This document shows positions 23,356-28,152 of a stretch of DNA of 33,186 bases, piece after piece (the first letter of the stretch is position 1; each line of letters begins with the position of its first letter). A model generated the notes under the pieces. The model made no database searches. It saw nothing but the letters and a program-made list of their open reading frames with translations, and was not told the DNA's origin. The translations under genes and the position numbers were made by a program. Source of the stretch: Bdellovibrio sp. ZAP7 (GTDB lineage: Bacteria > Bdellovibrionota > UBA1018 > CAIMNF01); NCBI GenBank assembly GCA_945874535.1, contig CAMCGZ010000025.1, positions 1-33,186 on the forward strand, written 5' to 3'.

Positions 23356-23368
23356 AGGTGAGGGTGTG

Positions 23369-26020
23369 ATGGGGACGGGGTACATCATCAGGTTATTGGG
23401 GTTCGCACTGCTGACGATCGCATCGCTTTCGTCGTGTTCCCTCGATCAGCGATCCATTGCAGGAGGCATGGCGAGGATTCAACTCAATACCCGTTCGCAA
23501 ACCGGTGGACCTGCCAAGCTGGGATCCATGACCGGAAACGGAATGACCGCGCCGACCGCAAGTTCCTACTACGTCGTGGATGTGGAAGGCGAGGGGATTC
23601 CCCGTGATGTCATTGAGCCTACGAAGTGCGTCCGAGCCAGTCCGATCAGCAGTGCCATGGTTCCGGCCCTGCTTCAAGCTGGAGAGGCTGATCGCACCGA
23701 GATCGAACTCCTGGTACCGGTCGGAGCGAACCGGAAGATCCGGATCGTTCGGGTAGATTTGAACATTCCAAGCGGGAGCGCTTTTCCGCAGTTCGGAGAG
23801 AATCCGTTCCGGTTCAAGATGCGGAATCCCTCTTACTCGGTCAATCCAAATCTGTTCATTCTGGCTGAGGTGGAGATTCCGTTCCTGAATGGAGACCAGA
23901 GCGTGACCTTGGTCGAGAAAGCCTCGCCACTTCCGTTACCGAATCAGTGCTCGAATCCCGGACCGCCTCCCATCTCGAACGGTGAGGTCCAGATCAGTGA
24001 TTATGAGCCCTTCAGAAGTCAGGTTCTTTGGAGCGGAACTTACGTTTTTAGATTGAGAGGGAGATTGACACGGCTGCAAAGCGGTTTTTCTTCTTATTAC
24101 ACTTCATCACCCGTCTTGAGCATACCGGGTGGGACCGTGACAGCAGAAGGTTCTCCTCCTCCGGTTATTTCGGTGGGGGGACAGGCTCCAGCCCCGATGC
24201 AAGTCTGGTTTTCGCGCGCATTCACCTTCACACCCCCGGCCGTGCTGCCGTTTTCACAGGTCGTGACGGGGACTATTCCCTATACCGGGGGAACCCTCCC
24301 TTCGATTTCCTGGACTTTCCCGGTGACGGTTCGATCTGAAACTGCACCCTTGAATGTGGCGATTACGGGTACCCCCTTGATGTTGAATGGCATGACCTAC
24401 GCGAACACCTTCAAGGCTCAAATCGGGGCAAGTCGTTCTGTGGATCTGCAAGCGATCGACTTGGGCTCGGATATTTTCGGATACTACGACCATTCCTCCT
24501 CGGAGCCCGCACTCGAATTGGTACCACCTCCCCCTTCGGCAACGGGAACTCCCTGTCCTCTGAAAGGGCCCGGCTCTCCGGGCTCTCCGTTGTTTCTCAG
24601 CCCAGCTGCTCTTTGTGATGTTTACGTGAGGACTTATCAGCAGACCGGCTTCGCCCATTACGTATTGAATCTGAAATCAGTGTCGGGTGGGAATTTTGGT
24701 GCTCAGACGGCGATCCTGACACCAGCTGCCGGATTGAGCTTTTCACTCAATGCCCGGGGTGAGAGTGGTATCGAAGGGATTCAAACTTCGGCATCTACCC
24801 TCACTTTTGATGGAAGCACGATCCTTCCCGTTGCCACGCCTACTCTGAACGGTAATTGGGCACTGCCCGTCGCGGAAGCCGGGGCGACACTCACGCTCGA
24901 GCAGGTCCGTACGAGATTTGCGAACGGGACTGAGTGTGCCCAGATCTCCAATCCTTTTTGTGGGGTGACGATCACTGCGGGCAATCCGACTTCCCTGACC
25001 TTTCCGAGTCATGTGGGTGGATCTCCATTAGTGGAGTTAAATGTCGTGGTGAACAAGGTGATTTCCTCGAATACCACCCACTATCGGCAGACCATCCGGC
25101 TAAACAATTTAGTTTATACCGGGGTGCTTGACGATCTGCCTGCGGTGACGCCTGCACCTACACCTGCACCCACACCTGCACCCACACCTGCACCCACACC
25201 TACACTAAATTCCCTTTCTCTCATTGCAGGTTCCATCGGTGGAGCTGGAAATCTCGATGGAACGGGCACATCTGCGTGGTTTAACGGGCCATCCGGCGTC
25301 GCGGTGGATGCATCGGGCAATGTGTATGTGGCTGATTCTAGCAATCACACCATCCGCAAGATCACCCAGGCAGGAGTGGTCACTACCTTGGCTGGGACTG
25401 CTGGATCCCTAGGCTCGAGTGACGGGACTGGCGCCAATGCGAGGTTTAACAATCCACAAGGCGTCGCAGTGGATGCTTCGGGCAATGTGTATGTGGCTGA
25501 TACGGGCAATCACACCATCCGCATGATCACCTCGGCAGGTGTGGTCAGCGCTTTGGCTGGGACAGCTGGGACCTTGGGATCGAATGACGGGACTGGCGCC
25601 TCTGCTAGGTTTAACAATCCATTTGGCGTCGCGGTGGATAGCTCAGGCAATGTGTATGTGGCTGACTCTAGCAATCACACCATCCGTAAAATCACTTCGG
25701 CAGGTGTGGTCAGTACTCTGGCTGGGAAAGCGGGGTCCCTAGGCTCGAGTGACGGGACTGGCGCCTCTGCTAGGTTTAACAATCCATTTGGCGTCGCGGT
25801 GGATGCTTCGGGCAATGTGTATGTGGCTGATACGGACAATCACACCATCCGCAAGATCACCCAGGCACGAGTGGTCAGTACTCTTGCCGGGGCTCCGGGG
25901 AACAGAGGTATTGCACCTGGGGCTTTGCCCTCCACTTTGAGCGCTCCCCAAGGGGTGGCTGTTCGGGGTAGTGACGTTGTGGTGACCTCTGGAGGCTCAG
26001 TGCTCTTGATTGGACCCTGA
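23369..26020 (+). CDS. Large lipoprotein with C-terminal NHL-repeat propeller
   Basis: An 883-residue predicted lipoprotein (lipobox L-S-S-C, Cys 23). Residues about 25-590 are Ser/Thr/Pro-rich beta-type sequence without a family I recognise. A TPAP-repeat linker lies near residues 594-612, and the rest is a set of NHL repeats with the core GVAVDASGNVYVADSSNHTI, four clear copies of 55 residues plus degenerate edges, likely a beta-propeller. NHL propellers usually bind other proteins or glycans. The repeats are nearly identical at the DNA level (see the repeat entry). The ATG at 23369 is taken over the adjacent GTG at 23366 because of the AGGTGAGGG site. Co-transcribed with the FecR-domain gene and opposite the TPR-barrel gene, it is a candidate surface-exposed adhesin or cargo. 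Confidence 0.82.
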   Translation: MGTGYIIRLLGFALLTIASLSSCSLDQRSIAGGMARIQLNTRSQTGGPAKLGSMTGNGMTAPTASSYYVVDVEGEGIPRDVIEPTKCVRASPISSAMVPALLQAGEADRTEIELLVPVGANRKIRIVRVDLNIPSGSAFPQFGENPFRFKMRNPSYSVNPNLFILAEVEIPFLNGDQSVTLVEKASPLPLPNQCSNPGPPPISNGEVQISDYEPFRSQVLWSGTYVFRLRGRLTRLQSGFSSYYTSSPVLSIPGGTVTAEGSPPPVISVGGQAPAPMQVWFSRAFTFTPPAVLPFSQVVTGTIPYTGGTLPSISWTFPVTVRSETAPLNVAITGTPLMLNGMTYANTFKAQIGASRSVDLQAIDLGSDIFGYYDHSSSEPALELVPPPPSATGTPCPLKGPGSPGSPLFLSPAALCDVYVRTYQQTGFAHYVLNLKSVSGGNFGAQTAILTPAAGLSFSLNARGESGIEGIQTSASTLTFDGSTILPVATPTLNGNWALPVAEAGATLTLEQVRTRFANGTECAQISNPFCGVTITAGNPTSLTFPSHVGGSPLVELNVVVNKVISSNTTHYRQTIRLNNLVYTGVLDDLPAVTPAPTPAPTPAPTPAPTPTLNSLSLIAGSIGGAGNLDGTGTSAWFNGPSGVAVDASGNVYVADSSNHTIRKITQAGVVTTLAGTAGSLGSSDGTGANARFNNPQGVAVDASGNVYVADTGNHTIRMITSAGVVSALAGTAGTLGSNDGTGASARFNNPFGVAVDSSGNVYVADSSNHTIRKITSAGVVSTLAGKAGSLGSSDGTGASARFNNPFGVAVDASGNVYVADTDNHTIRKITQARVVSTLAGAPGNRGIAPGALPSTLSAPQGVAVRGSDVVVTSGGSVLLIGP
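25151..25204 (+). repeat. 12-base tandem repeat encoding a Thr-Pro-Ala-Pro linker
   Basis: About four and a half copies of a 12-base unit (ACACCTGCACCC with small variants) in frame within the NHL lipoprotein gene. It encodes a rigid TPAP linker between the beta-rich part and the propeller. Such a tract is liable to change length in 12-base steps without frameshift. Confidence 0.85.
25295..25951 (+). repeat. 165-base tandem repeats encoding NHL blades
   Basis: Four copies start at 25295, 25460, 25625 and 25790, each beginning GGCGTCGCGGTGGAT or close to it, with an exact 165-base period (55 codons). Units 1 to 3 are full length and nearly identical in DNA, including at silent positions; unit 4 diverges in its last third. 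The third and fourth unit starts share the longest identical stretches. Conservation at silent positions points to recent duplication or ongoing gene conversion. Confidence 0.92.
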
Positions 26021-26400: not shown

Positions 26401-27246
26401 TTAGTGAATCAACCCGTGGAGCTTCAGCTTCTCCATGAGGGTCACGCGCTCCATGCGGGCGGCGCGGGCCGTCTTGTCGAGGTCGTGATTGAAGCTCTTC
26501 AGCAGCTCAGAGAGGTAGATCTTCTCGAACTCGGATCGGGTCGCCTGGAAGTTGATCTTGTCGTGACCGAAATCAGGAAGATCCCGGAGTTCGATTCGCT
26601 CGGAATCGCAAGAGACTGCCGCCATCCGGAGGACGTTCCGGAGTTCGCGAAGGTTGCCGGGCCAGTCGTAATCCCGGAGCTTGCGCCAAGCGGTCTCGGA
26701 GTAGCCCTTGATGAACTCCTTGTGGAGCTCTTGGGTGATCTCCTGCAGGATGCCCATGGCGATGTCTTCGAACTCATCTTCACGCTCGGCCAGATTCGGC
26801 ATCTCGATGCGGTTTTTAGAAAGGCGGAGCAAAAGCTCGTCATTGAACATCCCGGCGCGGGCGCGGGAATCGATCTGAGGAACCGCGGTTGCGATGATCC
26901 GTACATTAGCGATCATCGGCACATTCACCCCTTTTTGAGTTTGGGGAACGGCGCGGGTTTTCAGGAAGTTCAGAACCACCATTTGTTCAGAAACAGGGTA
27001 ATTGGCGATGTCGTCCACAATGAGGGTTCCCCCGTTGCAGTCGCGGATCTGTTCCGCAATCGTACGATCCCGGGTGGCCATGATGCAGATCTGGGCCGCA
27101 CGGGGTGAGTTCTTATGGATCCACTTGGCGAGAGCGCCCTTGCCGGTTCCGGTGCCGCCGATGACCAATACGGGTTCATCATCAGACTGGGCAGCCGAAA
27201 GCGCGATTTTCCGTTGGGACGAAGGAATGAAATAGACCATGCTCAT
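26401..27246 (-). CDS. NtrC-family AAA+ regulator lacking the GAFTGA loop
   Basis: A 281-residue protein made of a shortened sigma54-activator AAA+ domain and a Fis-type DNA-binding helix-turn-helix. Walker A is GGTGTGKG (30-37). Walker B is TLIVDDI (74-80), with Asp in place of the usual catalytic Glu. Between them are only 36 residues, and the segment that normally holds the GAFTGA loop is absent. The later parts are present: FNDELLLRLSKNRIEMPNL (R-finger region), YDWPGNLREL, and the C-terminal HTH (DKTARAARMERVTLMEKLKLHG). There is no N-terminal receiver or sensor domain. GAFTGA is needed to contact sigma54, so this protein should not be a normal sigma54 activator; it may act as a repressor or with another sigma factor. 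An ATG at 27240 is an alternative start. Confidence 0.85.
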   Translation of the reverse strand: MSMVYFIPSSQRKIALSAAQSDDEPVLVIGGTGTGKGALAKWIHKNSPRAAQICIMATRDRTIAEQIRDCNGGTLIVDDIANYPVSEQMVVLNFLKTRAVPQTQKGVNVPMIANVRIIATAVPQIDSRARAGMFNDELLLRLSKNRIEMPNLAEREDEFEDIAMGILQEITQELHKEFIKGYSETAWRKLRDYDWPGNLRELRNVLRMAAVSCDSERIELRDLPDFGHDKINFQATRSEFEKIYLSELLKSFNHDLDKTARAARMERVTLMEKLKLHGLIH

Positions 27247-27257
27247 AGTGTCTTTCG

Positions 27258-27287
27258 AGTATAGCGGAAACGGGGCACGTTCACCAA
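27258..27287 (-). promoter_or_regulatory. Promoter candidate for the AAA+ regulator gene
   Basis: On the minus strand, TTGGTG (27287-27282), an 18-base spacer and TATACT (27263-27258, five of six consensus bases). The predicted start falls only a few bases before the ATG at 27246 and about 11 before the ATG at 27240, which would favour the second start codon or a near-leaderless message. Confidence 0.35.
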
Positions 27288-27360: not shown

Positions 27361-28152
27361 ATGAAGACATTTTGGCCGGTGGTGTGGTTCGCGTTCCTGA
27401 TGGTCCCGGAATCGCACGGGCGTGGTTTGAGTGTTCGTGAGGACCTGGTCCAGGTGGCAAACGGTCAAGGCATTGCATCTCCGAGTTACCATGGGGCCCT
27501 TTTCGGGCAAAATCCGGCAGGCTTGGTCCAGAACCAGCGCCTGAAGGTGCAAGGTGGCATCGCATCAATGGATGATTCTACGGCTAATTTGAAAGCCTCC
27601 GGAGCAGTTCTGGCCGGTAACGGAGTTCTGGGCGCCGGTGTCGGATACTCCCAGTTTGACTCCGGAGCTTATGCGTCAGGAACGGGTGCTCTTCAATGGG
27701 GCGCTGCAGGAACCCTGCAGTCTTTATCGACTACCTTGGGCATTTCCGGACGGAGTGTCTCGGGAGGCGCATCGACCTACGATGTCGGGCTGTTTTTTGA
27801 TTTTATCCCCCGGACCCGCATTGCCGGCGTGGTCAAAGATGCAGGGAACGGTCTGCACCTGGTCGGAGCGGGGGTTCAATTCATGGTGGATTCCATGGTC
27901 GATCTGGTGATCGACGCGGATTACGAAACCCGGCTCAAGCAAGGGGTGGTGAAGCCTGGCTTTTCCCTGCATACGGAACGGGTTCAATTCACCGCCGCCT
28001 ACGGCTTCCGCTATGTCGGGTCCACCGACTTGTATCTTTATTCCCGCATGACTGCGGGAATCGGGATCCGGATTGCCGATTCCATCTTGCTCCAATACCA
28101 GTACCGGAGCCTGCCTCAGCACCTGGTCGGTTTGACATTGCGCCTGAACTGA
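27361..28152 (+). CDS. Outer-membrane beta-barrel-type protein of unknown function
   Basis: A 263-residue exported protein. The ATG at 27361 has a strong GGAGG site four bases upstream and opens a signal peptide (FWPVVWFAFLMVPESHG); an upstream in-frame ATG at 27322 lacks these features. The mature part begins GLSVREDLVQVANGQGIAS and has SYHGALFGQNPAGLVQN, a Phe-x-Gln-Asn-Pro-Ala-Gly element reminiscent of PorV/FadL-type barrels where an NPAG motif follows the signal peptide. The rest shows alternating strands such as LGAGVGYSQFDSGAY and ILLQYQYRS. It ends in Asn rather than an aromatic residue (LRLN), so the C-terminal Bam signal is atypical. It is divergent from the AAA+ regulator gene across 114 bases, and the next gene starts 17 bases downstream. 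Confidence 0.65.
   Translation: MKTFWPVVWFAFLMVPESHGRGLSVREDLVQVANGQGIASPSYHGALFGQNPAGLVQNQRLKVQGGIASMDDSTANLKASGAVLAGNGVLGAGVGYSQFDSGAYASGTGALQWGAAGTLQSLSTTLGISGRSVSGGASTYDVGLFFDFIPRTRIAGVVKDAGNGLHLVGAGVQFMVDSMVDLVIDADYETRLKQGVVKPGFSLHTERVQFTAAYGFRYVGSTDLYLYSRMTAGIGIRIADSILLQYQYRSLPQHLVGLTLRLN

Follow-up and report, generated by a model that had tools for sequence, protein, structure and literature searches.

An NtrC-type AAA+ protein without the GAFTGA loop in an order of Bdellovibrionota: a candidate sigma54-independent regulator

Introduction

PspF consists of an AAA+ part and an HTH without any N-terminal domain; TyrR, DhaR and HupR carry N-terminal domains, and VpsR has one that is receiver-like. 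The working motor parts of sigma54 activators are loop 1, Walker B, the switch Asn and the R fingers (PMC7175178, in excerpt). Activators that lack GAFTGA have been reported at sigma70 promoters, and NtrC of Rhodobacter capsulatus needs ATP binding but not hydrolysis; the authors of that report anticipate a role in Caulobacter NtrC for hydrolysis as well as for ATP binding (PMC10274813, in excerpt). TyrR and DhaR of E. coli and HupR of R. capsulatus are activator-derived proteins with a defective GAFTGA that depend on sigma70, and VpsR of V. cholerae also lacks an intact GAFTGA (PMC3162934, in excerpt). GAFTGA-less regulators derived from activators are already a known kind.

Here we analyse a protein of this kind encoded in a window of 33,186 nucleotides (contig CAMCGZ010000025.1, assembly GCA_945874535.1) from Bdellovibrio sp. 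ZAP7, whose genome assembly is 2.42 Mb long and 96% complete; its near relatives are all MAGs. The protein resembles the NtrC proteins of R. capsulatus and Caulobacter in combining an NtrC-type AAA+ domain and an HTH with a loop-1 deletion that spans GAFTGA (PMC10274813, in excerpt). However, those two belong to the phosphorylated response regulators and each has a partner kinase, whereas the window protein has no N-terminal domain and shows additional catalytic losses. Its predicted fold is that of the GAFTGA-deficient VpsR (PMC3162934, in excerpt), whose structure (7v2b) is c-di-GMP-bound according to the entry title. Unlike the window protein, PspF has GAFTGA, two Arg fingers, the switch Asn and sigma54 as its partner (PMC4132715, in excerpt). 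In the literature searched, no paper treats GAFTGA and Bdellovibrio together.

Gene and protein anatomy

The gene occupies positions 26401..27246 of the reverse strand, the strand of all its features given below, and was delimited by open reading frame, Pfam, alignment and structural model. Its start codon (ATG) lies at 27244-27246 and its stop codon (TAA) at 26401-26403, giving a protein of 281 aa. Pfam (Sigma54_activ_2, 64.9 bits; AAA_lid_14, 57.6 bits) and a fold match to NtrC1 both identify the fold as NtrC-type AAA+. Walker A is present, and so is the lid, which covers residues 154-228 (26563..26787). A Fis-type HTH follows at residues 237-275 (26422..26538); its HTH_8 score of 19.8 bits is slightly below the Pfam cut-off of 22, and the model has three terminal helices there. 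The AAA+ domain begins at the first residues of the protein, with no N-terminal domain before it, and the upstream open frame would add just 27 residues (308 vs 281).

An AlphaFold2 model built from the window protein and 49 aligned relatives has a mean pLDDT of 89.4 and a pTM of 0.75. The predicted fold matches NtrC1 (Z 24.3 over 223 residues, 2.7 A), VpsR (Z 22.9 over 219 residues, 2.9 A) and PspF 2c96 (Z 22.7). The best single-sequence match in the PDB is VpsR 7v2b (E 1.5e-23).

Loss of loop 1

The original prediction placed only 36 residues between Walker A and Walker B and held that GAFTGA was missing. The first figure is right within one residue, the spacing from K36 to D78 being 42, and alignment bears out the second: neither GAFTGA nor an equivalent is found between Walker A (K36) and Walker B (L75-I80). 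Among other activators of the same genome (13 listed, 11 fetched and examined), the spacing from the Walker A Lys to the first acidic residue of Walker B is 65 in nine of the eleven, so that ∼23 residues, GAFTGA included, have been lost. Aligned to these paralogues, the gap falls on the loop-1 segment, with its junction at residues 63/64 (27055..27060).

Relatives keep the deletion. Loop 1 is missing in 43/43 aligned family rows, fragments included (the alignment contains G032 and the G051 fragment), and the Walker spacing is 42 in 23 rows and 43 in one (24 parsed of 27). Relatives with an intact loop, or with GAFTGA elsewhere, were not found in this alignment. The genome of the window encodes sigma54, and 9/11 of the fetched activators retain GAFTGA or GSFTGA; loss of the loop is therefore not due to loss of sigma54. 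With GAFTGA deleted and Walker A kept, the window protein fits the GAFTGA-less, activator-derived kind of regulator.

Two further activators of this genome also lack the loop, at G000:C6:51926-52873 (L007/L165) and G000:C3:2564-3535 (L011/L166), with spacings of 50 and 49. Their orthologues in the family of the window's genome (hereafter f1) are likewise without GAFTGA in the f1 genomes read (9 and 10 of 13); orthologues in G020 and G028, and one of the two in G055, keep it. Genes downstream of one of the two activators are, judged by their first residues, presumably related to fliF, fliG, fliH and fliI, and a flagellar regulator may thus have left sigma54. On a more speculative view, f1 has separately lost this loop in two flagellar-cluster activators, as though activators of the lineage were on their way out of sigma54 control.

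State of the motor residues

We compared motor residues in an alignment of 41 members (13 from f1, 23 other HTH-bearing and 5 HTH-less rows). From the 46 genomes matched, it leaves out G047, the fragments of G042, G051 and G053, and G032, which has an in-frame TGA. Equivalences to PspF R162, R168 and N64 follow the alignment and the PspF numbering. In Walker A (residues 30-37, GGTGTGKG; 27136..27159) the Gly residues are invariant, and the position of Lys36 holds Lys in 38/41 members and Arg in the other three, which suggests that nucleotide binding may not be universal in the family. Walker B (residues 75-80, LIVDDI; 27007..27024) reads DD (D78, D79) in 13/13 f1 rows. In the 28 rows outside f1, Asp never occupies its first position, where P, S, H, N, Q, A or E stands instead, and its second is still acidic (E in 25, D in 3).

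The arginine-finger segment F134-L142 (FNDELLLRL; 26821..26847) retains just one of the two fingers. The first, of the R162 type, is Asn in 35 of the 36 HTH-bearing rows (N135 in the window protein). The second, of the R168 type, is R141, with Arg in 13/13 f1 rows and Lys in 19/23 of the other HTH-bearing ones. The switch-Asn position, A57 of the window protein, is occupied by A, T or S in 36/36 HTH-bearing rows. Sensor II Arg200 (26647-26649) is invariant in 41/41 members. The prediction that the Arg-finger region, sensor II and the HTH were kept thus holds for R200, the second finger and, with a weak match, the Fis-type HTH; it fails for the first finger. A canonical motor carries DE in Walker B, a pair of Arg fingers and the switch Asn; in their place the window protein has DD, N135/R141 and A57.

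The Asp in place of Glu had been read as possibly weakening hydrolysis. The substitution itself is real, but on duplex DNA the E108D variant of PspF is as good an activator of transcription as the wild type, even with its reduced ATPase activity (PMC4132715, in excerpt). We regard it as the weakest argument; the finger and switch losses weigh more, as does the missing Walker B Asp outside f1. Judged from the residues present, the DD Walker B and the R168-type finger of the window protein may still allow hydrolysis.

Distribution and selection

The family profile matches 46/58 genomes of the class (E <= 1e-45) and none of the 310 genomes from the rest of the phylum (E <= 1e-46), giving 46/368 overall with the best six candidates per genome scored. 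Each genome has a single match except G053, with two fragments, and G045, where the second match is a GAFTGA-bearing relative and not a second family copy. Between the window's species and its two nearest species, dN/dS is 0.012/0.66 and 0.021/0.92 for the whole gene. For the HTH part the same pairs give 0.000/0.53 and 0.037/1.07, a constraint about as strong as that on the rest. These values come from our own Nei-Gojobori script, and six of the other ten pairs are saturated in dS. The gene is under strong purifying selection.

The HTH is missing from the orthologues of G016, G029, G030, G035 and G044, which end early or have unrelated tails and in which the AAA+/lid part stays. Those of G029, G030, G035 and G044 have neighbours in common with HTH-bearing members and therefore look like true orthologues; G016 shares few. 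For G030, G035 and G044, the shared neighbours are the clusters with the SprT-like and MutS2 members of L124. The five HTH-less proteins suggest that DNA binding is dispensable in places.

Ancestry

In the phylogenetic tree, all 27 family rows group in a single clade (100/100), the branch of which is long (1.58). The family and 17 short activators are set apart by a branch with 100/97 support. On its other side lie the remaining 31 rows, including all 11 sampled other activators of the window's genome as well as L184 and L187, two similar proteins that other families of the class encode. The short activators have a full-length loop 1 (spacing 65 in 17/17) and mostly a GAFTGA-type motif (15/17). 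One of them, L167, was read whole (314 aa, without an N-terminal domain); the others were judged by the length of their open frames, mostly 290-420 aa and 507 in one case. Because the family branch is long, the exact sister group is uncertain. The ancestor was probably a PspF-like sigma54 activator without an N-terminal domain.

The loci of short GAFTGA-type activators (L168-L187; e.g. L167:227-1168, ∼315 aa) often contain a second activator gene. Twelve such partner activators form a clade of their own (100/100), and the short activators and their partners possibly constitute a paired-activator system.

Upstream region and neighbouring genes

A probable housekeeping promoter, TTGGTG-N18-TATACT (27258..27287, reverse strand), was recognized by eye in an alignment of the genus and ends 11 nt before the ATG. 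CTATAATC occurs in 4/11 upstream regions of f1, with two near copies left out. With its -10-like element only 11 nt from the start codon (27247-27263), the mRNA would probably be leaderless or have a very short leader. No dyad recurs upstream of the gene in f1 beyond near copies.

The divergent neighbour at 27361-28152 (cluster 14) has no Pfam match. It is constant in 12/12 loci of the window's genus, whereas the remaining 20 of the 32 loci compared yielded no copy of it; L138, from the other genus of f1, lacks it. We thus rejected it as a widely conserved target. The neighbours across families (SprT-like, MutS2 and a PnrA-type ABC transporter) are too mixed to reveal a coherent target gene. 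On the other side, positions 23366-26020 of the window encode a protein of 884 aa that has four NHL repeats and a PAPTPAPT linker. A similar open reading frame is present in 6/12 loci from this genus; contig ends truncate some of these loci.

Outside f1, a loose pattern, TTGAC-N14-GCGTTA, lies upstream of 19/29 orthologues (two of them near copies), vs 0/13 in f1; a profile of the motif was built on 18 sites. Genome-wide in six genomes the loose pattern is not enriched (19 hits vs 40 for the reversed control). The refined pattern TTGAC-N8-YGC-N3-GCGTTA, which contains the dyad TAACGC-N3-GCGTTA (e.g. L194:1499-1523, with similar sites in L201-L230), gives 37 hits vs 3 for the reversed control in 58 genomes, 14 of them before the family gene; it was fitted on these same upstream regions. 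A pattern that differs by one base gives 6 hits vs 1, and two of the six precede the family gene. Five refined hits precede a small XRE-type HTH gene, and the others lie before genes for secreted-looking proteins or before genes that were not read.

We first took this motif for an operator of the family protein itself, and now lean to the XRE protein as the binder, because perfect palindromes stand before the XRE gene in 4/7 cases (before secreted-looking proteins in the other three). The motif also occurs in genomes without a family match, namely G056, G039, G054 and G048 (the last two 74-76% complete). The XRE gene is present in 45/58 genomes, and several genera carry the motif before it. 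Strict patterns match 7/42 XRE upstream regions, several more being recognizable by eye, and the XRE genes of f1 are without the motif. As far as these site patterns go, the family gene outside f1 is a likely but unproven target of the XRE regulator.

Possible roles of the protein

Loss of loop 1 would leave the protein unable to engage sigma54. The original proposal of a repurposed regulator that cannot remodel sigma54 is well supported, given the order-wide absence of the loop, a sigma54 gene in the same genome and purifying selection. We consider it reasonably likely that the protein is a sigma54-independent DNA-binding regulator derived from a sigma54 activator, with the AAA+ domain serving nucleotide binding or assembly, along the lines reported for Rhodobacter NtrC; binding of DNA and nucleotide we infer. 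The loop would have been lost before the order radiated, ending contact with sigma54, and erosion of the catalytic residues would have come after it. The AAA+ fold, retained together with Walker A and sensor II, would probably bind nucleotide and set an oligomeric state in which the Fis-type HTH is presented to DNA; the promoters concerned would be those of a different sigma factor. The sigma factor used and the sign of regulation we likewise infer.

A bolder and rather speculative proposal is an order-wide pseudo-motor without productive ATP hydrolysis, acting either as a nucleotide-sensing DNA switch that has no sensory domain or, without its HTH, as a cap or poison of sigma54-activator rings.

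Somewhat less plausible is a regulatory subunit or antagonist that enters the rings of loop-bearing activators by way of the AAA+ interface and poisons or tunes them. The protein does derive from such an activator, the genome still holds GAFTGA-bearing activators and sigma54, and the HTH-less orthologues would fit. Moreover, engineered linked PspF dimers in which a loop-1-defective T86A subunit stands beside a wild-type one support transcription poorly (PMC4132715, in excerpt), which suggests that a loop-less partner could act negatively. However, the nearest canonical relatives in the tree come from other families, and the 13 f1 genomes match those relatives more weakly (best 6.8e-66 vs 1e-77 to 1e-115 among the order's holders listed, with the best six candidates per genome scored). 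With its first Arg finger gone, the protein is also unlikely to aid a neighbour's active site.

We give marginally less weight to a pseudo-ATPase adaptor that acts without DNA, its HTH being a relic or a dimerization piece. The loss of the HTH in 5/41 aligned members that retain AAA+ and lid speaks for it, and so does Trp W42, invariant in 41/41 members and found in 0/11 paralogues shown. Against it, the HTH and AAA+ parts are under roughly equal constraint in the window's genus, and HTH_8 matches 30/41 members at E <= 0.01.

Action with sigma54 through a different surface appears improbable. Caulobacter NtrC is without GAFTGA, and when its HTH is mutated it raises the level of some flagellar transcripts that depend on sigma54 (PMC12421884, in excerpt); sigma54 is also encoded in the genome of the window. 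Here, however, the motif has gone together with the rest of the loop, and neither the switch Asn nor the first finger remains.

Decay of the gene is scarcely credible, for all the in-frame TGA of the G032 orthologue and the shortening of some members, given its presence in 46/58 genomes, the purifying selection and the constant motif spacing; decay of this single copy was rejected because relatives share the loss and dN/dS is low.

Significance

Loop-less relatives of sigma54 activators are known individually, and those compared here have N-terminal domains. What is new is a family without an N-terminal domain in which loop loss is kept across an order, while the motor is lost by degrees and some members have shed the HTH too. 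This graded erosion (the Walker B Asp, the Arg fingers, a few Walker A Lys residues and the HTH) provides a natural series from which to learn what in an AAA+ activator still matters when remodelling is no longer its task.
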